A stretch of DNA of 64,000 nucleotides from Hymenobacter setariae (GTDB lineage: Bacteria; Bacteroidota; Bacteroidia; Cytophagales; Hymenobacteraceae). The translations under genes and the position numbers were made by a program. Location of the stretch: positions 664,129 through 728,128 of the forward strand of contig NZ_VMRJ01000001.1 in the NCBI RefSeq assembly GCF_007713685.1, read 5' to 3'. The notes beneath the pieces are model-generated. The model did no database searches. It worked only from the letters and a program-made list of their open reading frames with translations, and was not told where the DNA came from. Below, piece by piece: positions 15,608-26,518 of this stretch (position 1 is the stretch's first letter; each line of letters begins with the position of its first letter).

Positions 15608-17170
15608 CTAACGCAGTGGAGCAGCTAGTTGTTGTGCCGCGGTGTCGGCGGCAGGCAACACGGGCCAGTAGCGCTCACGCAGTATACCTAGGTGGTGCCG
15701 CTCGTGACCGGCCGTGATAAAGAGCAGGGCGCGCACGCTAGTAGCGCCTCCATTGGCGAGGCCCACGCGGTCGAGCTGCGCGGGTGTGAAACTGCTAAAA
15801 AGGGCCAGCGTAGCCGCCCGCACGGCATGATACTCCATTAGCAGGTCGCTCATCGGGCGGTCGTTGGCCTCGCTCGTAGCGGCATATTCGTTTTCATTGA
15901 AGCCAGGCAGCGACTGGGCATCGCCGCGGGCGAAACGCAGGGCCCGGTACGTAAAAATGCGCTCCGTATCAATGATATGTAGTAGCACCTCCTTAGGCGT
16001 CCACTTGCCGGGCGCGTAGCGCATAAATGCCTGCGCCTCGGTGAGGCGGGCCAGGTCGCGGTGCAGTTCGGCGGGCTGCTGGCGCAGCAGCGCGAGCGGG
16101 TCGGCGCCTTCCGGAATCAGGTCGAGGTAGCCTTGCGCGTAGGGCTGGTAGGTGCCGGGCGCGGGGCGGGCTGGGGTAGCAGTGGCAGGCATGGCGGCAA
16201 AGGTAGCCGCCCGCGCCCGGCCCTTGGCCAGATATCGAAACCCCAGGCGTGCGGCGCCAAGCGGCCGGCGGCGTAGATGGCGCTTGCCAGCCAACAGGTG
16301 CGCCCCTAGGTGGTGCTGTAAGTAATCACGGGTATCAACGCCCTCTACCCCAAAGGCCCAGCGCAAAAAATCGGGCATGATGGCGCCCCAGGTGTCTTGG
16401 TGGTGGTGGCCGCCGGGCACCTCTACGTAGCGCACAGCCTCGGTGGGCAGCCCCTGCTGGGCCAGCGTGGCCATCAGGTCGAGGGTATCATCTATCGAGT
16501 CGATGATACCGTTGTTGTTGCGGTCGCTGGTTTCATCGTCGGTGCCGGTTTGCAGCCAGTATTGCTGGCCGGGCCTAGGCGCCCGGGCACTTACCAAGCT
16601 GTGCATCAATCGGTCGGCATCGGTGTAGCCATCATTCAAGCCCCGGCTGCGCCACCAAAACGAGCCGCTGAACGAGCCCGCCCGCTGAAACGCTTCGGGG
16701 TGGTGCCAGGCTAGGTCGAAGGCCGTGAGGCCACCTAGGGACATCCCGGCCACTACCGCTTCGGCGGGGTTGGCGCTGGCGTGGTAGTGGGCCTGCACGT
16801 AGGGCAGCAACTCCTTGAGCACAAACTCGGTGTAGTGCCCGGCGCGGCTGCCGCGGCCTAGGTAGTCGGGCTGGGCAGCCACGCCGTACTCCTGCAGGCG
16901 GTCGGCGGCGTGCACTGCTACCAGCACAAAGGGATGCACGGCCCCGCGCTTATACAGGTAGTTGAGCGTGGCGGGCAGGCGTAGGCGCTGCAGGTCCTGG
17001 CCGTCGTTGAGGTACAGCACCGGGTAGGGCTGCGCGGCGGCCACGTCGAAGCCAGGCGGCAACACCACATCGAGGCGCACCACGCGGCCCAGCCGGATAG
17101 AGAATAAGGATTCGTCGCGCCGAACGGCCACGGTGGCCCCGCGCGGCGACTGAAAGCGGAATACTGCCAT
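15608..17170 (-). CDS. Esterase-DinB fusion protein, 520 aa
   Basis: The N-terminal ~290 residues are an alpha/beta hydrolase of the enterochelin-esterase type (PF00756-like): VLYLNDGQDLQ, nucleophile elbow GMSLGG and a GGHHH histidine near the end. After a basic linker, residues 327-520 form a DinB-like four-helix domain with the metal-binding histidine pattern (LLHIIDTERIF; GHERHHLGI). Such two-domain proteins are unusual. An internal ATG at 16192, preceded 5 bp upstream by TACCTTTG, could express the DinB part alone (194 aa). So this may be one fused gene, or two genes of which the first has lost its stop. Confidence 0.8.
   Translation of the reverse strand: MAVFRFQSPRGATVAVRRDESLFSIRLGRVVRLDVVLPPGFDVAAAQPYPVLYLNDGQDLQRLRLPATLNYLYKRGAVHPFVLVAVHAADRLQEYGVAAQPDYLGRGSRAGHYTEFVLKELLPYVQAHYHASANPAEAVVAGMSLGGLTAFDLAWHHPEAFQRAGSFSGSFWWRSRGLNDGYTDADRLMHSLVSARAPRPGQQYWLQTGTDDETSDRNNNGIIDSIDDTLDLMATLAQQGLPTEAVRYVEVPGGHHHQDTWGAIMPDFLRWAFGVEGVDTRDYLQHHLGAHLLAGKRHLRRRPLGAARLGFRYLAKGRARAATFAAMPATATPARPAPGTYQPYAQGYLDLIPEGADPLALLRQQPAELHRDLARLTEAQAFMRYAPGKWTPKEVLLHIIDTERIFTYRALRFARGDAQSLPGFNENEYAATSEANDRPMSDLLMEYHAVRAATLALFSSFTPAQLDRVGLANGGATSVRALLFITAGHERHHLGILRERYWPVLPAADTAAQQLAAPLR
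16198..16205 (-). promoter_or_regulatory. Internal TACCTTTG element before the DinB-like part
   Basis: A perfect TAnnTTTG match on the minus strand inside the esterase-DinB frame, five bases before an in-frame ATG at 16192. If active, it would give a leaderless DinB transcript. No clear -33 TTG is seen at the usual distance. Confidence 0.4.
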
Positions 17171-17266: not shown

Positions 17267-18004
17267 GTGGGCTCCTTTCCCACCGGCACCTGCCCCTTGC
17301 ACGAAGAATACCGCCGCTTCTACTCCCAGCACCTAGGCCTCGACATGGAAATGCTGGTTTTAGGCGACTACGGCTACCCCATCCTGGTTTTTCCGACCTC
17401 CAATGGTCGCTACTTCGAGGCCAAAGATTTTCACCTGGTCGACTCAGTGCGCTGGTTTATCGAAAACAAGCTCATTAAGCTGGTTTGCATCGACAGCGGC
17501 GACAAGTGGAGTTGGTACGCCAAGCACCTGCACCCCGGTACCCGCCTGCACAACCACAACCTTTATGACCGCATGATAAGCGAAGAGTTAGTGCCGCGCC
17601 TGCAGCAAGAGTGCCAGGTCGACAAGATAGGCGTGGCGGGCTGCTCCCTAGGTGGCTACCAGGCGCTTAACTTCGCCTTTAAGCACCCCGAGAAGGTGGC
17701 GCACCTATTTTCGATGGGTGCGGCCTTCGACATTCGCATGTTTATGGGCGGCTACTACGACGAGCAGGTGTACTTCAACAATCCGCCCGATTTTATGCCC
17801 AATGCTCAGAATGACAACTTTTACAAGATGAACATCATCTTGGGCACGGCCGAGCACGACTTCTGCAAGGATTCTAACTATCAGATGTCGGGTATTTTAG
17901 CCGCCAAAGGCATTCCGCACCGCCTCGATGTGCGCCCCAACGGCACCCACGACTGGCCGGTGTGGCGCGAAATGTTCCCGGAATACGTCTCTTCTATCTT
18001 TTAA
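17267..18004 (+). CDS. Alpha/beta hydrolase, predicted esterase (COG4947-like)
   Basis: About 235-245 residues. The nucleophile elbow is GCSLGGYQALNFAF; the fold starts HLGLDMEMLVLGDYG and ends with a catalytic His in NGTHDWPVW. There is no good ATG at the N-terminus. GTG 17267 or TTG 17297 (which gives MHEEYRRFYSQHLG) are the candidates, and the conserved start of the family favours one of them. First gene of the co-directional amidoligase set, 59 bp ahead of the ATP-grasp gene. A hydrolase in such a set may cleave or trim an ester or amide intermediate (inference). Confidence 0.8.
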   Translation: MGSFPTGTCPLHEEYRRFYSQHLGLDMEMLVLGDYGYPILVFPTSNGRYFEAKDFHLVDSVRWFIENKLIKLVCIDSGDKWSWYAKHLHPGTRLHNHNLYDRMISEELVPRLQQECQVDKIGVAGCSLGGYQALNFAFKHPEKVAHLFSMGAAFDIRMFMGGYYDEQVYFNNPPDFMPNAQNDNFYKMNIILGTAEHDFCKDSNYQMSGILAAKGIPHRLDVRPNGTHDWPVWREMFPEYVSSIF

Positions 18005-18063
18005 TAAGGCTGTTGCGTACAACTGCGCAGCTTCTCTCCCAAACACCCATTTCGTCTTCTCTC

Positions 18064-19272
18064 ATGAAAAAAATAGGCATTCTTTTCGGCCAAGAAAACA
18101 CGTTTCCGCAGGCTTTTGTCGACCGCGTCAACCAAAAAGCCGTTGATGGCATCACGGCCGAGTTTGTAAATATTACGGAAGTGGAGCAGGCTGTGCCCAC
18201 TGACTATGCCGTTATTATCGACCGCATTTCGCAGGACGTGCCTTTCTATCGTGCCTACCTCAAGAACGCCGCCCTCACGGGTACGGCTGTGATTAACAAC
18301 CCCTTCTGGTGGAGCGCCGACGAAAAGTTCTTTAATAATGCCCTCGCGGTGCAGCTCGGCGTGCCAGTGCCCAAGACGCTGCTGCTGCCCAGCAAGGCCC
18401 GCCCCGACGACACCAATGAGAACTCGTTCCGCAACCTGTCGATGTTCGACTGGCAGAAGGCGTTTGAGAAAATCGGTTTTCCGGCCTTCATGAAGCCCCA
18501 CTCGGGCGGCGGCTGGAAAAGCGTGTATAAGGTGGACAATCCCGACGAAGCCTGGCGCGCCTACGACGAAACTGGTCAGCTCGTAATGCTGTATCAGGAA
18601 GCCGTTGAGTTCGATGACTATTTCCGCTGCTACTGCCTAGGTGGTAAGGATGTGCTCATCATGCCCTACGAGCCGCGCAATGCCTTCCATGAGCGCTACA
18701 AGACGGAGATGAAAACGCAGGGCGAGGCCGGCGAAAAGCTGCTCGCAACGGTAAAAGACTATACGCTGCGCCTCTGCCAAGGCCTGGGCTATGACTTCAA
18801 CACCGTAGAATTTGCGGTGCGCGACGGTGTTCCAATCGCTATTGACTTTGGCAACCCCGCGCCTGACGCCGACATTAATTCGGTAGGCCCCGAAAACTTT
18901 GAGTGGGTGGTAGAGCACGCCGCGAACCTAGCCATCGAGCGGGCCCAGGCCCAGCAGCCCGGCCGCGACAACCTCACCTGGGGCACGTTTGTGCAGAAAT
19001 CAGCTAGCCAAACCGTCATTGCCTCGACCGATGGCGCGGTGGAAGTTGGCAGCCCCGTGCATGAAACCAACGACCTAGGGGCCACTGGCATTCAAGCCGC
19101 AACGAAGAAGGCCGCGCCCAAAAAATCGGCTGCTCCTCAGCCCGTAGCCCCCGAGGGCGAGGTACCAACCGAGAAGCCCGCCGCTAAAGCCAAAGCGAAA
19201 GCTGCCCCCAAAGCAGAAGCCAGCGCCGAAAAGGCGCCCGCCAAACCCAAGAAGGCACCCGCTAAGAAATAA
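18064..19272 (+). CDS. ATP-grasp ligase with histone H1-like Lys/Ala/Pro tail
   Basis: 402 residues from ATG 18064 (MKKIGILFGQENTFP). The ATP-grasp fold is visible: FPAFMKPHSGGGW (ATP-binding lysine and glycine loop), LYQEAVEFDDYFR, and the metal-binding end FNTVEFAVRDG followed by IDFGNPAPDAD. It should join a carboxylate to an amine through an acyl phosphate. After about residue 345 comes a ~55-residue tail rich in Lys, Ala and Pro (AKAKAKAAPKAEAS), like histone H1 or AlgP tails, which is odd for a metabolic enzyme. Neighbours are a GCS2-type ligase, an amidotransferase and a second ATP-grasp-like protein. Confidence 0.85.
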   Translation: MKKIGILFGQENTFPQAFVDRVNQKAVDGITAEFVNITEVEQAVPTDYAVIIDRISQDVPFYRAYLKNAALTGTAVINNPFWWSADEKFFNNALAVQLGVPVPKTLLLPSKARPDDTNENSFRNLSMFDWQKAFEKIGFPAFMKPHSGGGWKSVYKVDNPDEAWRAYDETGQLVMLYQEAVEFDDYFRCYCLGGKDVLIMPYEPRNAFHERYKTEMKTQGEAGEKLLATVKDYTLRLCQGLGYDFNTVEFAVRDGVPIAIDFGNPAPDADINSVGPENFEWVVEHAANLAIERAQAQQPGRDNLTWGTFVQKSASQTVIASTDGAVEVGSPVHETNDLGATGIQAATKKAAPKKSAAPQPVAPEGEVPTEKPAAKAKAKAAPKAEASAEKAPAKPKKAPAKK

Positions 19273-19298
19273 CTGTTTTTCCTTTTTAGCTGCGTGAG

Positions 19299-19335
19299 AA
19301 AGGGCTGCCATCGCTGCTTGGTGGTAGCCCTTTTT
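19299..19335 (+). terminator. Hairpin after the ATP-grasp gene
   Basis: AAAGGGCTGCCA pairs with TGGTAGCCCTTT (one G-U pair) and is followed by further T. It lies inside the amidoligase set, so the downstream ligase gene may have its own promoter or depend on read-through. Confidence 0.65.
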
Positions 19336-19401
19336 GTGGCTCTTTGCTTCCTCTAGCGCCCTAGGGGTTTTTGCTTACTCATTTCTAGTCGCTGCCCACC
19401 T

Positions 19402-20505
19402 ATGGCCCGGCCCGTTTTCACCCTCGGAATCGAAGAAGAGTTTCAAACCATCGACCCGGTCACGCGCGACCTGCGCTCGCACATGTCGAAGATTGTGGAG
19501 GACGGCAAAATCACGCTGCACGAGCAGGTGAAGGCCGAAATGCACGAGTCGGTAGTGGAAGTTGGCACCAATATTTGCCATAATATCGAGGAGGCCCGCA
19601 CAGAGGTAATTCACTTGCGCCGCCAGGTGATAGAGCTGGCCGACCGCGTGGGCCTCAAAATAGCGGCAGCGGGCACGCACCCGTTTTCGCGCTGGCAAGA
19701 CCAGCCCATCACGCCCGATGCGCGCTACGACAAAATAGTGGAGGAGCTGCAAGAGGCTGCCCGCTCCAACCTCGTCTTTGGCATGCACGTGCACATCGGC
19801 ATCGAAAACCGCGACCTAGGCGTGTACATGATGAACGCGCTGCGCTATTTCTTGCCGCACTTGTTTGCGCTCAGCACCAACTCGCCGTTTTGGGAAGGCC
19901 GCGAAACCGGTTATAAATCGTTCCGAACTAAGGTATTCGAGCGGTTTCCGCGCACCGGTATCCCGGGCTATTTCAATAGCGCGTCTGACTACGACGAGTT
20001 TCTGGCGTTGCTCATCAAGACGGGCTGTATCGACAACGGCAAGAAAATCTGGTGGGACTTGCGGCTGCATCCCTTCTTCGACACCATCGAGTACCGCATC
20101 TGCGACATGATGATGCGCGCCGACGAAACCATTGCCGTAGCTGCCGTAATGCAGGCGCTGGTAGCTAAAATTTATAAGCTTAAGTGCCAAAATCTGAACT
20201 TCCGGCTCTACCGCAGCGCCCTCATTAAAGAGAATAAGTGGCGCGCCGCGCGCTACGGCATCAATGGCACGCTCATCGACTTTGGCTCACAGGAAGAGAA
20301 GCCGGCCCGCCAACTCATTCTGGAACTGCTCGACTTTGTCGATGACGTACTCGACGACCTAGGCAGCCGCCACGAAGTAGAGTATGTGCTTAAAATGTTG
20401 GAAATGGGCACAGGCGCCGACCGCCAGCTCGCCGTTTTTCACCAAACCGGCGACCTCACCAAAGTAGTTGACTACATTTTAAGCGAGACCACGCACGGGC
20501 TCTAA
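19402..20505 (+). CDS. Carboxylate-amine ligase, GCS2 family (YbdK-like)
   Basis: 367 residues, normal length for the COG2170 group related to plant-type glutamate-cysteine ligase. Diagnostic stretches: FTLGIEEEFQTID at the start (metal-binding glutamates), AAGTHPFSRW, VFGMHVHIGI and ALSTNSPFWEGRETGYKS. It catalyses ATP-dependent amide formation; YbdK itself has only weak glutamate-cysteine ligase activity, so the natural substrate is unknown. It is followed at 99 bp by a glutamine amidotransferase gene. Together with two ATP-grasp-type proteins it suggests stepwise synthesis of an amide-linked metabolite. Confidence 0.93.
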   Translation: MARPVFTLGIEEEFQTIDPVTRDLRSHMSKIVEDGKITLHEQVKAEMHESVVEVGTNICHNIEEARTEVIHLRRQVIELADRVGLKIAAAGTHPFSRWQDQPITPDARYDKIVEELQEAARSNLVFGMHVHIGIENRDLGVYMMNALRYFLPHLFALSTNSPFWEGRETGYKSFRTKVFERFPRTGIPGYFNSASDYDEFLALLIKTGCIDNGKKIWWDLRLHPFFDTIEYRICDMMMRADETIAVAAVMQALVAKIYKLKCQNLNFRLYRSALIKENKWRAARYGINGTLIDFGSQEEKPARQLILELLDFVDDVLDDLGSRHEVEYVLKMLEMGTGADRQLAVFHQTGDLTKVVDYILSETTHGL

Positions 20506-20604
20506 ACAGCTTATGCGCTGCTTCAACGAACTTATTATTAATTTGCTACCGTTATTTTAAACAAGCCTTTTCTTATCGGGTTTATTAAGATTATTCATTA
20601 GCCT

Positions 20605-21429
20605 ATGCCTACTTTCCGTATTGCCGTCCTGGATTTGTACAATAACACCCGCAATGAAGGGATGCGTTGTATCTACCAGCTTTTACGCCGCACCGAAGCC
20701 GCTCACCACGTAACATTTGCGGTTGACACGTTTAATGTCCGGGCTGAGAACCAGGTTCCAGGCCTCGACTACGACATCTACATCTCGAGCGGCGGGCCCG
20801 GCAGCCCCCTTCCTTCTACCGAAGCTTGGGAGCCGCTTTATTTTCAGTTTATTGACTCACTGCTGACTTACAATCAGACAGCTGAGCGCAAAAAGCACTT
20901 ACTTCTGATTTGCCACTCGTTTCAGCTCATAAGCCGGCACCTAGGGCTGGGCGAGGTGAGCAAGCGCAAGTCTACTTCTTTTGGCGTGCTGCCGGTGCAC
21001 CTTACGCCAGCCGGCGAAGCTGACCCGGTATTTGACCAGCTGCCCGAGCCATTCTACGCCGTCGATTCGCGTGATTATCAGCTTACTGACGTTGATGATG
21101 ACCGCCTGGCCGAGTTAGGGGCTTCGGTGCTGTGCCTCGAGAAAGAGCGCCCCCACGTGCCGCTGGCCCGGGCCGTTATGGCCATCCGCTTCTCACCCGA
21201 GGTGCTGGGCACCCAGTTTCACCCCGAGGCCGATGGCGAAGGCATGCTACGCTATATGCTAACCGATGAGCGTAAGCAGCAGGTAATCACAGCCTATGGC
21301 GAAGATAAATACGACGACATGGTGCGCCTGCTCGCCGACCCCAATGCCATCGAGCGGACCGAAAACGTAATTATTCCCAACTTTTTGCGCCGGGCGCTGG
21401 CGCAGCTTGGCGAGTTGGCACTAGCCTAG
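20605..21429 (+). CDS. Class I glutamine amidotransferase-like protein
   Basis: 274 residues. The triad is visible: Cys in LLICHSFQL and His and Glu in GTQFHPEAD, with the oxyanion-type SSGGPGSP strand earlier. It is not linked to a synthase domain, unlike GuaA or CarA. It would release ammonia from glutamine for a partner ligase, or act as a gamma-glutamyl hydrolase. The N-terminal ~60 residues (FRIAVLDLYNNTRNEGMRCI) and the last ~60 residues extend beyond the core. Context points to supplying the amidoligases on either side. Confidence 0.88.
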   Translation: MPTFRIAVLDLYNNTRNEGMRCIYQLLRRTEAAHHVTFAVDTFNVRAENQVPGLDYDIYISSGGPGSPLPSTEAWEPLYFQFIDSLLTYNQTAERKKHLLLICHSFQLISRHLGLGEVSKRKSTSFGVLPVHLTPAGEADPVFDQLPEPFYAVDSRDYQLTDVDDDRLAELGASVLCLEKERPHVPLARAVMAIRFSPEVLGTQFHPEADGEGMLRYMLTDERKQQVITAYGEDKYDDMVRLLADPNAIERTENVIIPNFLRRALAQLGELALA

Positions 21430-21475
21430 GTCCCTTCTGCTATGCTGATTGCTAAGCGCTCTTAAGTCCATTTAC

Positions 21476-21508
21476 TGGCGCGAACCTGACCGTTCGCGCC
21501 ATTTTTTT
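21476..21508 (+). terminator. Rho-independent terminator after the amidotransferase gene
   Basis: Perfect 10-bp stem TGGCGCGAAC/GTTCGCGCCA with a 6-nt loop and seven T. It separates the amidotransferase from the next ligase-like gene, whose start is only 21 bp further on. Confidence 0.85.
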
Positions 21509-21528
21509 GCTCGTCATTTCTTCTCCTT

Positions 21529-22722
21529 ATGATTCCTGCTGCCCGCCACCTCTTCAACGCCGCTTTCACCCCCGAGAAATATCAGGAAATGCTGGCCGAC
21601 ATCGACCAGCAGCTACCGGGTCAGTTGGATTTTCGCGTGGCAGAAACGCCGGTTTTTGTGCCGGCAGGCTTACGCGACAAGCTCATTCAGGCGGGCCAGG
21701 ATATCATCGATGTTATTCAGCAGCCCGATTTCAAGCAGCTCACCGAGCAGGCCATTCCTCCCCACCAACGCGTGCCGCATGAGGATGAGCACGCCGAATT
21801 TTTAACGTTTGACTTTGCGGTGTGCCGGGGCGCCGATGGTGACTTGGAGCCACAGCTCATTGAGATGCAAGGCTTTCCGTCGCTTTATGCGTTTCAGTCG
21901 TGGCTGCCTTCTATTTTTCGAAAGCACTATCCTATTCCCGAATCGGTAACTCCGTTTTTGGAAGTGGCCGATGTAGATGCCTACCACGCCGAAATGCGTA
22001 AATTGATATTAGGCGACGAGCAGCCGGAAAATGTCATTCTACTGGAGTTGTTTCCAAAGCTGCAGAAGACTCGGATAGATTTTATGCTGTCTAAGCAGTT
22101 CTGGGGCATCGAAGCCATATCGCTGCCCGACGTGCGGAAGCGTGGCCGACACTTATTCTATGAGAAAGACGGCCGGGAAATTTTAATCAAGCGCATCTAC
22201 AACCGCATCATCTTTGATGAGCTAGTGCGCTACCCCGATTTGCACCCTGAGTTTAACCTCACCGACGATGATGTGGACGTGGAGTGGGTAGGCCACCCCA
22301 ACTGGTTTTTCCGCATCAGCAAGTACACGCTGCCGCTCGTCAAAAGTGACTTTGCGCCGGCTAGCTACTTCTTGCACGAGCTGACAGAATACCCAGCCAA
22401 CCTAGAGAACTACGTGCTCAAGCCCCTGTTCTCGTTTGCGGGCGCGGGCGTGCGGCTGCACGTGACAGCGGCCGACCTCGACGCGCTGCCCGATAAGCAG
22501 AATTACTTGCTGCAGCGCAAGGTGCAGTACGAACCAGTAGTGCAATCGCCCGATGGCTTGGTGAAGTGCGAAATCCGTCTCTTGTATAGCTGGCCTAAGA
22601 CGAGCACCAAGCCAATGCTGCTCACTGGCTTAGCCCGTCTGAGCCGTGGTGAAATGATAGGCGTGGATTTCAATAAAAATAAAGATTGGGTGGGCGGCAC
22701 TACGCCGCTGTTTGAGAGATAA
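21529..22722 (+). CDS. ATP-grasp-like protein of unknown substrate, 397 aa
   Basis: I do not recognise a named family. Features compatible with a divergent or rearranged ATP-grasp fold are: PQLIEMQGFPSLYAFQ (acidic strand), ENYVLKPLFSFAGAGV (candidate ATP-binding Lys and glycine loop), LQRKVQYEPVV, and VKCEIRLLYSW near the end. There is no signal peptide. It is the last of five co-directional genes with ligase, amidotransferase and esterase functions, and this supports an amide-bond role. The ATP-grasp reading is moderate confidence only; a structure prediction would decide it. Confidence 0.6.
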   Translation: MIPAARHLFNAAFTPEKYQEMLADIDQQLPGQLDFRVAETPVFVPAGLRDKLIQAGQDIIDVIQQPDFKQLTEQAIPPHQRVPHEDEHAEFLTFDFAVCRGADGDLEPQLIEMQGFPSLYAFQSWLPSIFRKHYPIPESVTPFLEVADVDAYHAEMRKLILGDEQPENVILLELFPKLQKTRIDFMLSKQFWGIEAISLPDVRKRGRHLFYEKDGREILIKRIYNRIIFDELVRYPDLHPEFNLTDDDVDVEWVGHPNWFFRISKYTLPLVKSDFAPASYFLHELTEYPANLENYVLKPLFSFAGAGVRLHVTAADLDALPDKQNYLLQRKVQYEPVVQSPDGLVKCEIRLLYSWPKTSTKPMLLTGLARLSRGEMIGVDFNKNKDWVGGTTPLFER

Positions 22723-22818: not shown

Positions 22819-23313
22819 ATGTCAACTCTTGCTCAACGCGGCCTCGAGATTTCCAAAAACTTACTTTTCAGCAAATTTATCAGCCGCAGCTCTCGGCTAC
22901 TCAGCAAGCCCCTCAAGGTGGCTGTTGTGCTCAACGAAGCCGCCGACAAACTAGCTGATAAGAACAGTAAGGAAAATAAATTTGTCCAGCTCTTCGAAAC
23001 TGGCCACACACTGGTGCGCCTCGTGCGCAATTATGTCAGCGGCGAGTATCGGCAAATTCAAACCAGCACTATTGTTTCGGGCCTAGGTGTACTTCTCTAC
23101 GTCATCTCCCCTATCGACCTAGTACCCGACTTTATTCCAGCGCTCGGCTTTCTCGACGATTTAAGTCTGATAAGCTGGTTTATCGGTAAGTTCCACGTGG
23201 AAATTACCAGTTTTCATGAATGGGAGCAAACCAGTGCACCAGCATTAGCGCACTCAGCCCCTGCTCAGAGCGACCGCTCGCTACCTGCCGTAGCCGAACT
23301 CGGTCATTCCTAG
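22819..23313 (+). CDS. YkvA/DUF1232 family membrane-associated protein
   Basis: 164 residues from ATG 22819; the in-frame TTG at 22771 lies inside the preceding hairpin and I reject it. The DUF1232 signature is clear: YVISPIDLVPDFIPALGFLDDL with neighbouring hydrophobic helices. The family is widespread and its function is unknown. The N-terminal ~70 residues are amphipathic and the C-terminal ~30 are low complexity. It converges on the Gfo/Idh/MocA gene. Confidence 0.88.
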   Translation: MSTLAQRGLEISKNLLFSKFISRSSRLLSKPLKVAVVLNEAADKLADKNSKENKFVQLFETGHTLVRLVRNYVSGEYRQIQTSTIVSGLGVLLYVISPIDLVPDFIPALGFLDDLSLISWFIGKFHVEITSFHEWEQTSAPALAHSAPAQSDRSLPAVAELGHS

Positions 23314-23321
23314 GGTATCAA

Positions 23322-23389
23322 CACTAAAAAGCCGGCTACTCCTTGTAGGACACGATGTTGTCTTATAATGAGTAGCCGGCTTTTTAGTG
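23322..23389. terminator. Bidirectional terminator overlapping a stop codon
   Basis: Perfect 20-bp arms (CACTAAAAAGCCGGCTACTC and complement) at 23322-23341 and 23370-23389, with a 28-nt loop. A and T runs serve both strands. The right arm includes the TAA stop of the oxidoreductase gene (23384-23386). Confidence 0.85.
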
Positions 23390-24424
23390 AAATAGGCTTG
23401 GGCGTAGCGCGTAGATACGCTCAATCAACTCGACTACTTTCAAGCCATCTTGAGCATTGGTAATGACTTGGGCACCGCTTTGCACGGCCTGCACCACGTC
23501 GTCAATCACATAGCCGTGGTTGGCAGCCGAGCCTTGGTAGGTGCCGTAATTATTGGCGGCGTTGGTGGCGGGCAGGGTCGGCAGCTCATAGCCTTGCACA
23601 TGGCAGTAGTCGATTTTATCTAGGTACTGCCCCCCTATTTTGAGTGAGCCGCGCTCGGCCACTACGGTCAGGGAGCTTTCGAGATTGCGGTCCCACACCG
23701 CAGTGCTGTAGCTGAGCGTGCCACTGCCGCCACGCACTAAGTCAAAGGTAACGAGCCCACTGTCTTCAAAATCAGTGACCCCTTGATGCACAAAATCTTG
23801 AAAGCGAGCGTTGATATTCGTGATATCCCCAAACACCCAGTATAACAAGTCAACGAAGTGGCTGAACTGCGTAAACAGCGTGCCGCCATCCAGCGCCTGG
23901 GTGCCCCGCCAGCCGCCCGGTTGGTAGTACCGCGCATCGCGGTTCCAGAAGCAATTGAGTTGCACCAAAAAAACTCGACCTAGGTAACCGTTTTCATATA
24001 GCTGCTTAAGCCAGGCCGCGGGCGGCGAGTAGCGGTTCTGCATCACTCCAAAGACCAGCTTGTTAGCTTTTTGCGCCGTTTGCAGCACTAATTCAGCGTC
24101 GGCAGTACGCAGGGCTAGAGGCTTTTCAATGACAACGTGCAAGCCGTGGCGCACGCCAGCCACAGCCTGGCTAGCATGCAAGCCATTGGGCGTAGCTATG
24201 GTAAGCACGTCAGCGGCAGGCCCTTGCGCAACATACGCTTCTAAAGATGTAAAGAAGGGTACCCCCGGGAACGTAGCAGCCAACGCGGGGCGTAGTTCTG
24301 CTTGCACATCGACCAGGGCCACCAGCTGCGCCTCGGGGTGGCGGGCCACCAGCGTGGCGTGGCGGTGGCCAATATGGCCTACCCCACAAATAACGAAGCG
24401 AACTTTAGCTTTTGAATAAGTCAC
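23384..24424 (-). CDS. Gfo/Idh/MocA oxidoreductase, nucleotide-sugar dehydrogenase type (WlbA/WbpB-like)
   Basis: 346 residues. The Rossmann NAD site is FVICGVGHIGHRHA; the family lysine lies in HVVIEKPLAL. The C-terminal half is the usual beta-sheet domain (GGTLFTQFSHFVDLLYW, with the catalytic-region His and Asp). WlbA/WbpB enzymes oxidise UDP-GlcNAcA at C3, producing the keto group that a DegT-type aminotransferase then aminates. Exactly such an aminotransferase gene lies 9 bp upstream on the same strand, so the pair probably makes an amino-sugar for envelope polysaccharide. Confidence 0.9.
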   Translation of the reverse strand: MTYSKAKVRFVICGVGHIGHRHATLVARHPEAQLVALVDVQAELRPALAATFPGVPFFTSLEAYVAQGPAADVLTIATPNGLHASQAVAGVRHGLHVVIEKPLALRTADAELVLQTAQKANKLVFGVMQNRYSPPAAWLKQLYENGYLGRVFLVQLNCFWNRDARYYQPGGWRGTQALDGGTLFTQFSHFVDLLYWVFGDITNINARFQDFVHQGVTDFEDSGLVTFDLVRGGSGTLSYSTAVWDRNLESSLTVVAERGSLKIGGQYLDKIDYCHVQGYELPTLPATNAANNYGTYQGSAANHGYVIDDVVQAVQSGAQVITNAQDGLKVVELIERIYALRPSLFH

Positions 24425-24433
24425 GCGCGAATA

Positions 24434-25576
24434 TCAAACTGCGAAGAAAGCACGCGTGCTGGCTATGATGTAATCGAGCTGCGCGCCCGTCAGCCCCGGA
24501 TGCAGCGGTAGCGATAGCACCTGCTGGCACAGCTGCTCGGCTACCGGAAACTGGCCCGCCCCGTACCCTAGGTAGGCGTAAGCCGGCTGCTGATGCACAG
24601 GCAGTGGGTAGTAAATAGCGCTCGGAATAGCGTGCTGCGCCAAGTGCTGCCGCAGTGCCTCGCGGCGGCCATCTCCTTCTATACGAAGCGTATACTGGTG
24701 AAAAACGTGGCTGCTGCGCGGGTCGCGAGCAGGGATGTGCAGGCCGGGCATGTCGGCTAGCCCAGCATCATAGCAGGCACCTAGGGCTTGGCGGGCCGCC
24801 TGCGCAGCTGGCAGGTGCCGCAGCTTTACGCGCAGCAGGGCCGCTTGCAGGGTATCAAGGCGCGAATTTAGGCCAATGTGCTGGTGGTCGTATTTCTGCG
24901 CTTGGCCGTGGTTGGCCAGCCGCTGCAAGAGGCTGGCGTGGGCCGCGTCGCGAGTAAAAAGTGCGCCGCCATCGCCAAGGCAACCTAGGTTTTTGCTTGG
25001 AAAGAAGGAAGTAGTACCGACCTTCCCTACTGTGCCAGCATAAGCAGTCTTGCCGCTAGCAAAGGTAAAAGTAGCCCCTAGGGCCTGGGCATTATCTTCT
25101 ACCAAGGCAACACCAGCCGCCGAGCAAATTTTCGCTAAATCTTCTAAATCAGCGCATTGCCCAAATAAATGCACAGCCAACACGGCCCCAGTACGCGGTG
25201 TGAGAGCTGCCCGAACCGCCGCTGGGTCGAGCATAAAAGTGTCGGGGCGCACATCGGCCAGTACTGGGCGCAGCCCTAACAGGGCTACGGCCTCCAGCGT
25301 GGCAATGTAGGTGAAGGCCGGTACAATAACCTCCGCACCCGGTGGCAGCCCTAGGCTGAGCAGCGTCAGTGTAAGAGCATCGGTGCCGTTGGCGCAGGGC
25401 ACCACATGCGCCCCACCCAGCCAACTACCTAGCTCGTTGGCAAAGGCCTGCACCGCTGGTCCCTGAATAAACGCGGCCTCCTGTGCAGTAGCTCGCCAAG
25501 CAGCATCCAGTTCCGCTTGGTAAGACGCGTGTTCGGCCGCAAGGTCGAGTAGCGAAATAGGAGCGGGTGGCAGCAA
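24434..25576 (-). CDS. DegT/DnrJ/EryC1 sugar aminotransferase (WbpE/WlbC-like)
   Basis: PLP enzyme that aminates keto-sugar nucleotides. The family fold is clear from PISLLDLAAEH through CANGTDALTLTL, EVIVPAFTYIATLEAV and LVEDNAQALGA. The PLP lysine is in SFFPSKNLGCLGDGG. 380 residues, normal length. It is followed by the Gfo/Idh/MocA dehydrogenase gene at 9 bp and preceded by a family 2 glycosyltransferase gene, a typical O-antigen or capsule arrangement. Confidence 0.93.
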   Translation of the reverse strand: MLPPAPISLLDLAAEHASYQAELDAAWRATAQEAAFIQGPAVQAFANELGSWLGGAHVVPCANGTDALTLTLLSLGLPPGAEVIVPAFTYIATLEAVALLGLRPVLADVRPDTFMLDPAAVRAALTPRTGAVLAVHLFGQCADLEDLAKICSAAGVALVEDNAQALGATFTFASGKTAYAGTVGKVGTTSFFPSKNLGCLGDGGALFTRDAAHASLLQRLANHGQAQKYDHQHIGLNSRLDTLQAALLRVKLRHLPAAQAARQALGACYDAGLADMPGLHIPARDPRSSHVFHQYTLRIEGDGRREALRQHLAQHAIPSAIYYPLPVHQQPAYAYLGYGAGQFPVAEQLCQQVLSLPLHPGLTGAQLDYIIASTRAFFAV

Positions 25577-25621
25577 AGCAGCAAGTAAAAAACAGTAGAC
25601 GCGGCCAAAGATACTGGCCAG

Positions 25622-26518
25622 TTAGCGGCCGCCCCCTTCTCGCAATAGCCAGAGCAACTTAAGTGCATCTAACGCTTTTAGAGAGGGTCTCGTACTAAGT
25701 AAGTTACGCCGTAGCAGTGGCTCACCCAGCGTTAGCGCTGCCTGCAAGGCGGCGGCTAAGCGGGCCCGCTGCAGGCGCCGAGCCGCCTGAACCAACCGGC
25801 TACTTGCGCCTAAGTTATCTTGGCGCAGCAGCTGCGCTAGGTTACGCACGGCCTGCTCCGATTTCTCGAGGAAAGCAGTGGCCGTTTCCAAACCGGCGTG
25901 CATAATGGGGTTGTCTAGGTGATGGATTGGTACGCCCGCCGCCGCAAGCTGCCAGCCTAGCTTCGTATCCTCGTGGCCGTAGCCACGCAAGCGCTCATCA
26001 AGTGGAAACTGTTGTAACAGTGCTTTTTGAATCAGTAAATTATTTATTAACAACTGGTCGTAGGCCGCAGCTTTGCGCTGCGCTAGGGGGCGAGCTTCGC
26101 GTTGGCGGCCATATAGCCACCGCAGCCGCAAGCCAGGCTCGGCCGGTGCCTGGTCGGCATAGCGTACGCCTCCTGCTACTACTGGCGCCTGGCTGCTGGC
26201 TGCGGCGTAGCGAGCTAAGTAGTGGCTAGCTGTCACTTGCCCGGTGTTGTCGAGCAATAATACCCATTCGTATTTAGCCTTGGCTACTAGTTGATTGCGC
26301 ACTGTTGCGCGGCCTACGTTGGCGGCTAGCTCTTGGTACACTACCCTAGGGAGCGTCGCTAGTAGTCGATTTGCCACCCGGTATTTTTCATCCGAGCCAT
26401 CGTCAAGTAGTCTGATTTCGGTAGGGCCCGGCCAGTCGGGCAGCTGCGCTAGCAGCGCGTGCACCAACTCTGATACGTCACGATTAAAAATCGGAATCAG
26501 AATGGATAAACCAGCCAT
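25622..26518 (-). CDS. Family 2 glycosyltransferase
   Basis: 298 residues, soluble. The N-terminal nucleotide-binding part is typical (LSILIPIFNRDVSELVHALL; EIRLLDDGSDEKYR) with a DNTG in place of the more usual DxD motif and a downstream GYGHEDTKLGWQL that fits the ED acceptor motif. Probably transfers a sugar or amino-sugar to a polysaccharide or lipid carrier. Followed at 45 bp by the DegT-type gene and preceded by ftsE at 19 bp. It may be cotranscribed with both. Confidence 0.85.
   Translation of the reverse strand: MAGLSILIPIFNRDVSELVHALLAQLPDWPGPTEIRLLDDGSDEKYRVANRLLATLPRVVYQELAANVGRATVRNQLVAKAKYEWVLLLDNTGQVTASHYLARYAAASSQAPVVAGGVRYADQAPAEPGLRLRWLYGRQREARPLAQRKAAAYDQLLINNLLIQKALLQQFPLDERLRGYGHEDTKLGWQLAAAGVPIHHLDNPIMHAGLETATAFLEKSEQAVRNLAQLLRQDNLGASSRLVQAARRLQRARLAAALQAALTLGEPLLRRNLLSTRPSLKALDALKLLWLLREGGGR

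Follow-up and report, generated by a model that had tools for sequence, protein, structure and literature searches.

A cluster of six genes, here termed P1 to P6, was analysed in Hymenobacter setariae, where it encodes three putative amide-bond-forming ligases (P2, P3 and P5), a putative thiol enzyme (P4) and two putative esterases (P1 and P6) (Table 1). The cluster lies in a 64,000-nucleotide (nt) stretch of DNA (the window; contig positions 664129-728128, G000:C1) of a 6.1 Mb source genome. An initial annotation of this DNA had described a five-gene amidoligase set; a linked and conserved multi-ligase set is indeed present, but a sixth member, the divergently oriented P6, had been missed. 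The five plus-strand open reading frames (ORFs) are found at the coordinates of Table 1 (that of P1 as the longer frame 17267-18004), together with all of the motifs that had been quoted for them (GCSLGG, MKPHSGGGW, IDFGNPAPDAD, FTLGIEEEFQ, ICHSFQ and FHPE).

Table 1. Genes and features of the ligase cluster in the window
Feature	Position	Strand	Description and basis
P6	15608..17170	-	Divergent PF00756 esterase (residues about 26-269) with C-terminal DinB_2; sixth set member
DinB_2 domain of P6 (residues 362-496)	15683..16087	-	Relative of bacillithiol/mycothiol S-transferases; PF12867, 1.9e-21
P1	17297..18004	+	PF00756 esterase, Ser127-Asp198-His228 (numbering from 17267); likely start TTG 17297, listed ORF from 17267
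P2	18064..19272	+	ATP-grasp ligase, RimK/LysX/ArgX fold (predicted)
P2 C-terminal tail, Lys/Ala/Pro-rich	19018..19269	+	Sequence; variable or absent among relatives (alignment)
P2-P3 gap, weak terminator-like hairpins	19304..19328	+	Terminator scan and folding
P3	19402..20505	+	GCS2/YbdK-type carboxylate-amine ligase
P4	20605..21429	+	Class I glutamine-amidotransferase-like thiol enzyme, Cys103-His206-Glu208
P4-P5 gap, strong terminator-like hairpin	21476..21501	+	Terminator scan and folding
P5	21529..22722	+	Circularly permuted ATP-grasp ligase, glutathionylspermidine/glutathione synthetase fold (predicted)

The families originally assigned to three of the proteins were recovered by profile searches, namely PF00756 (esterase) for P1, PF04107 (GCS2) for P3 with 230 bits against a cut-off of 21, and PF00117 (GATase) for P4 with 37.2 bits against a cut-off of 22.8. 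P2 and P5 have no Pfam match above cut-off; their predicted folds are nevertheless clear. Translation of P1 probably begins at the TTG codon at 17297, because several relatives begin at that residue with MHEEYRRF (close relatives) or MKESY. The ATG start of P2 at 18064 sits within a longer listed ORF beginning at 17962. Active-site conservation was counted over rows of aligned relatives filtered by identity and length, with the window protein included, and by this measure P1 to P5 all look catalytically active. For P1, Ser127 is found in 84 of 85 rows and both Asp198 and His228 in 85 of 85.

The predicted structure of P2 is a RimK-type ATP-grasp fold, with RimK as the top fold match. Foldseek alone placed D-Ala-D-Ala ligases first and LysX fifth, the RimK assignment resting on a separate fold comparison. 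Residues K144, D261 and N264 are kept in at least 97% of 109 rows, and a low-complexity Lys/Ala tail was seen on alignment in Hymenobacter and some others. The protein encoded at 21529, P5, had been called ATP-grasp-like, and its predicted fold is a circularly permuted ATP-grasp of the glutathione synthetase (GS) and glutathionylspermidine synthetase (GspS) type. Its nearest folds are those of YgiC, YjfC and GspS, and residues D95, E112, Q114 and K298 are kept in 84/84 rows. The GSP_synth profile PF03738 gives 13 bits, below its cut-off of 29.3, so that the likeness concerns how P5 may work rather than family membership.

P3 passes the NF010039 "carboxylate-amine ligase" model (536.8 bits; cut-off 371) as well as PF04107, and matches YbdK (PDB accession no. 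1r8g) at an E value of 2.8e-51. Its GIExE/HxHxG core can be aligned with YbdK at E11, at E13 and over the HVHxG stretch, and Glu11, Glu12, Glu13, His129 and His131 are kept in 92/92 rows. P4 passes the GATase profile and its C103/H206/E208 triad is kept in 81/81 rows. The canonical nucleophile elbow of class I glutamine amidotransferases is G-x-C-x-G. The corresponding stretch of P4 in the window is L-I-C-H-S-F-Q, which is not canonical, with C103 and S105 present in 81/81 rows. A role in supplying ammonia, as first proposed for P4, is doubtful and less likely given this elbow, the lack of a fused synthetase and the replacement by an M29 peptidase in two genomes described below; the protein appears more like a stand-alone thiol amidase or peptidase.

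P6 combines an esterase domain (PF00756, 107.7 bits) with a DinB_2 domain (77.3 bits); the latter scores 38.5 bits with the YfiT bacillithiol transferase model NF009807, under the cut-off of 160. Clustering of neighbouring genes by loose single linkage placed the P6 family in 66 fetched loci and the window, mostly two genes upstream of P2 and mostly on the minus strand. Relatives of its esterase half occur in 59 of the 115 compared loci that contain P2 (49/80 named and 10/40 hand-picked loci; sampling described below); in 55 of the 115 the distance to P2 is less than 3 kb, and there they are on the opposite strand in 55/55. P6 carries the C-terminal DinB_2 domain in all ten Hymenobacter loci where it was found, and Spirosoma (L084) and Larkinella (L095, L096 and L099) have a free DinB_2 gene in the P1-P2 interval, identified by Pfam in the first three and by a profile match in L099. 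A profile search of 120 loci gave 14 DinB relatives, none of them more than 1.1 kb away from P2; six belong to the seven rows from which the profile had been built.

To examine conservation, 148 Bacteroidota genomes of at least 90% completeness were searched with each protein, with matches in 82 (P1), 62 (P2), 52 (P3), 52 (P4) and 49 (P5). Only strong matches were used for counting (P2 60, P3 51, P4 40, P5 49), 12 P4 matches at E 4e-7 or weaker having been removed; among the 60 P2 genomes, G007 and G087 hold distant P2 relatives only (33-34% identity). P2 and P4 occur together in 40 genomes and P4 without P2 in none; P2 and P5 in 48, with one genome having P5 without P2; P2 and P3 in 50, again with a single genome having P3 without P2; and P3 and P5 in 47. 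P2 and a GspS-type ligase form the most constant pair and the one least often dispensed with; P3 and P4 are common but sometimes missing. Where P2, P3, P4 and P5 are all present (28 genomes), they are clustered in 17, under seven family labels, and unclustered in 11; contig breaks in two of the latter (G066 and G109) may contribute.

When the P2 alignment was used to search named GTDB genomes, at least 582 relatives were obtained; the best 80 were kept, and all of these belong to Bacteroidota. The loci compared were these 80 named ones, chosen by P2, and 40 picked by hand; 115 of the 120 contain P2. The order P1-P2-P3-P4-P5 on one strand is kept in 57 of the 80 named loci, in some with an extra intervening gene, and the arrangement is therefore not due to chance. 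The genes are thus not scattered and unlinked in relatives, though some genomes split the set. Full flanks (at least 16 kb) are available for 57 loci, of which 47 show the complete order, the others having P1, P2, P3 and P5 (four), P1 and P2 (two), P1 to P3 (two), P2 alone (one) or P1 to P4 (one). Genera with the five-gene order include Hymenobacter, Dyadobacter, Larkinella, Algoriphagus, Mucilaginibacter and Chryseobacterium.

P2 is found without P5 in 12 genomes, two of them with only distant P2 relatives. Seven loci were examined from the other ten (all except G104, G123 and G131), and in 7/7 a gene termed X follows P2 on the same strand at a distance of 5-98 nt. X encodes a circularly permuted ATP-grasp protein resembling PF14403, the cut-off of which was passed by one of two proteins scanned, and the X profile matches the putative GspS of PDB accession no. 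3n6x at 6e-8. It retains the R-x-D...E-x-N pattern (R134, D136, E148 and N150 in 5/5). As comparison of the X and P5 profiles gave a probability of only 22% (E 9e-4), the homology rests more on the 3n6x match. A further esterase, Y, lies downstream of P4 in 5/7 X loci (PF00756 shown for one). An M29 peptidase gene is located between P3 and P5 in G055 and G093, neither of which has a P4 match in its genome, and five Cyclobacteriaceae/Cytophagales loci have a gene for an S33-type hydrolase in the P1-P2 interval (Pfam for one). A sodium:solute symporter (SSF) is fused upstream of P5 in G125 (L037:4637-7240) and adjoins P5 in G133 (L019), a possible clue to substrate uptake; with one fusion and one adjacency only, it was not retained as a partner of the set.

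Intergenic distances were measured from the first possible start codon and are lower bounds. Their medians are 35.5 nt for P1-P2 (n=72), 27 for P2-P3 (n=89), 44 for P3-P4 (n=66) and 6 for P4-P5 (n=69), the corresponding gaps in the window being 59, 129, 99 and 99 nt. The initial annotation had taken hairpins after P2 and P4 to argue for separate transcripts, and so for a possible regulon rather than one operon. Both hairpins are present, that after P2 being weak (three G-C pairs), but their number is not beyond chance, since 11 terminator-like sites were counted in the region scanned and 8.4 +- 3.2 in shuffled sequences. No similar short hairpin with a T run was seen in nine Hymenobacter P4-P5 gaps inspected; three of these gaps (L075, L076 and L079) have large palindromes and one (L077) a stem-loop. 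P4 and P5 lie within 20 nt of each other or overlap in 48/69 loci. Because most of the genomes examined have short or overlapping gaps and the hairpin at 21476 is not kept, the idea of separate transcripts was dropped as a general one. A stem-loop was predicted by folding, without a shuffled control, in the P2-P3 gap of 11/11 Hymenobacter loci inspected, with differing sequences; since it recurs in Hymenobacter, it may act as a partial terminator after P2. In two Hymenobacter species (L075 and L076), large palindromic repeats (folding energies of -80.6 to -112.5 kcal/mol) were observed within the P2-P3 and P4-P5 gaps, which measure 145-255 nt.

The combination of GCS2, GS/GspS and RimK folds suggests successive amide ligations on a small acid, and linked peptide ligases are described as often acting in successive ligations (PMC4431377). 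The linked hydrolases (P4, M29, S33 and the esterases) suggest that peptide and ester bonds are turned over. From the linkage, co-occurrence, predicted folds and conserved catalytic residues we infer the reactions, their order, the substrates, the product and a cytosolic location, the last from inspection by eye, which showed no obvious signal peptide. P3 would link an amine to glutamate, or to a similar acid, at the side-chain carboxylate. P5, or X in some lineages, would activate this product or another small peptide at its carboxylate for the addition of an amine or an amino acid, as GS and GspS do, and P2 would add one further amino acid. P4 would cut a gamma-glutamyl or terminal amide, and P1 and P6 would act as hydrolases on an ester or thioester form. 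We tentatively favour, at slightly less than even confidence, the reading that these six co-recurring Bacteroidota genes form a pathway for the synthesis and subsequent turnover of a small gamma-glutamyl peptide or peptide-amine conjugate. The first interpretation is upheld in part, as regards the conserved multi-ligase set and the predicted ATP-grasp fold of the fifth protein; the amide-linked metabolite that it suggested (glutathione-like or a peptide tag) is conjectural.

Several observations weigh against this pathway. The Fisher co-occurrence values ignore the relatedness of the genomes counted and therefore overstate their independence, and the locus sampling was selected, by P2 for the 80 named loci and by hand for the other 40. 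P2 scores 33.4 bits with the RimK-family model TIGR00768 against a cut-off of 143.4, for which reason it is called RimK-like and not a RimK-family member, and its best sequence-profile matches in the PDB are biotin/pyruvate carboxylases and a D-Ala-D-Ala ligase, with RimK not among them. In 84/84 rows P5 lacks the Arg and has Gln for the Asn of the R-x-D...E-x-N pattern reported for Cp1B (mapped by motif, not by structure), and its chemistry may therefore differ. P3 is missing genome-wide in two of the 49 P5 genomes (G037 and G064, with P2, P4 and P5 present) and at the P2 locus in L117, L133 and L147, so a gamma-glutamyl first step is not obligatory. Finally, BshC is above cut-off in 144/148 Bacteroidota genomes and a second thiol is not needed; the locus is thus probably not the main thiol route of the phylum. 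A more specific form of the proposal, in which Bacteroidota would use GCS2-, GspS- and RimK-type ligases to make an undescribed gamma-glutamyl peptide-amine, a counterpart of glutathionylspermidine or trypanothione that would work beside bacillithiol and have an amidase, esterases and a DinB-type S-transferase of its own, is speculative and on the whole unlikely.

The strongest alternative, though an unlikely one, is a peptidyl-polyamine system through which the locus would control polyamine pools: P5 would couple spermidine, or a similar polyamine, to a short peptide, and P4 would undo this in the same way as the GspS amidase half. It draws on the nearest folds of P5, since YgiC and YjfC are termed peptidylpolyamine synthetases in PMC12568646, and on a class III aminotransferase near the locus in 19/115 loci. 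Glutathione synthetases, however, score only about 2 Z lower than YgiC, YjfC and GspS against P5, YgiC is reported to be without GspS activity (Sui 2012, as cited in PMC12506659), and the one aminotransferase scanned fell under every family cut-off shown. A carboxyspermidine route was rejected, NspC being above cut-off in 0/16 P2 genomes, a search uninformative on other polyamine routes; this too counts against the polyamine reading. Tagging of proteins or peptides, in which P2, like RimK, would glutamylate a protein and the tag would be extended by the other ligases, would agree with the top fold match of P2 and with its Lys/Ala tail; we consider it distinctly unlikely. Slightly less probable again is bacillithiol-linked detoxification, in which the DinB domain would form S-conjugates to be processed by the ligases and hydrolases. 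DinB enzymes include S-transferases that use bacillithiol, mycothiol or glutathione (PMC4360819). The fused and free DinB_2 domains at the ten Hymenobacter and four other loci would fit such a role, as would the presence of BshC in the source genome (G000:C8). Yet DinB lies near P2 in only 14/120 loci scanned, many DinB_2 members are of unassigned function, and bacillithiol is far more widely spread than the locus; none of P1 to P6 matches a Bsh synthesis model, BshC being encoded away from the locus. Modification of cell-wall peptides is very improbable: a PBP1C gene directly follows P4 in two genomes of different families (L039:2839-5217 and L040:9158-11641) and the fold relatives of P2 include D-Ala-D-Ala ligases, but the two PBP1C loci are the only ones of those compared and no wall gene is among the 18 largest neighbour families. 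An equally remote reading is that the genes are neighbours by inherited synteny without a shared pathway; synteny is strong within genera and many outer neighbours are common only to near relatives, whereas the same order across many families, co-occurrence when unlinked and the in-place swaps of P5 for X and P4 for M29 speak against it.

Further candidates were rejected. Classical glutathione synthesis was set aside with GshB (TIGR01380) above cut-off in 0/16 P2 genomes, the nearest being G130 with 245.6 of 299 bits. A carrier or ribosomally synthesised and post-translationally modified peptide (RiPP) precursor encoded by the operon was also discarded: clustering of small ORFs (22-110 amino acids, blastp E 1e-4) found no widespread precursor at the loci, the largest families filling eight loci each, all Hymenobacter, and the next seven loci in two genera, though very short or fast-changing peptides could be missed by this search. 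LysW was found in 1/16 genomes with P2. As for a mobile or viral origin, the P5 search gave no viral contig and the P2 search no plasmid; with regard to anti-phage defence, PADLOC returned 0 families for the six proteins at E 0.001.

Linked amidoligases are, as a kind, known from comparative genomics, and in such operons peptidases are reportedly linked as well. The set resembles the amidoligase operons of Iyer et al. 2009 (as cited in PMC4431377) in having different peptide ligases linked in one operon. It also resembles the pairs of carboxylate-amine ligases and GATase-like thiol peptidases (Iyer 2008, PMC2588565), which are predicted to make glutathione-like peptides, in that a ligase adjoins such a peptidase; it differs in that the ligase of those pairs is of another carboxylate-amine ligase family and RimK-type and GspS-type partners and esterases go unmentioned in section 6 of that paper. 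With the plant-type glutathione pathway (GCS2-family GCL and eukaryotic-type GS) it shares a weak match of P3 to plant GCL (E about 3e-4) and, for P5, the fold of plant and human GS; by contrast, YbdK is far closer to P3, P2, the thiol amidase and the esterases are additional here, and P3 is missing in some genomes. P5 has 10-14% identity with the Escherichia coli peptide-spermidine ligases YgiC/YjfC and with GspS, from which it differs in the altered Arg and Asn positions and in belonging to a six-gene set with two further ligases. P2 has 14-17% identity with RimK/LysX/ArgX, under the NCBIfam cut-off, and its set has no LysW-like carrier. No published description of the six-gene combination, its variants and its spread was found in the open-licence literature searched; Iyer et al. 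2009 (Mol Biosyst, b917682a) may list the set.

Outside the set, a DUF1232 (YkvA-like) gene (22819-23313, plus strand) lies just downstream of P5; its relatives near 11 loci are confined to Hymenobacter, making it a local neighbour only. On the minus strand, 23384-26518 encodes a Gfo/Idh/MocA oxidoreductase, a DegT-type sugar aminotransferase and an HfsG-like glycosyltransferase, all under NCBIfam cut-offs, and looks like the beginning of a run of genes of the surface-polysaccharide type. In the window the palindrome CCTAGG is found 91 times against 21.5 +- 4.6 expected (e.g., at 16305, 17647, 20940 and 21425), resembling a highly iterated palindrome. It is lineage-specific: Hymenobacter loci L071 and L072 have one each in 17 kb and are GCTAGC-rich, while that of H. 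cavernae (L079) has 14.

P2 is present in roughly 40% of the Bacteroidota genomes sampled (60/148), nearly always with a GspS-type partner. If the proposed pathway is correct, a large environmental phylum would have a common small-molecule pathway, and its product might buffer redox state, stress or polyamines. Because the genes co-occur strictly, enzymes are swapped in place and the active sites are intact, the proposal is directly testable.

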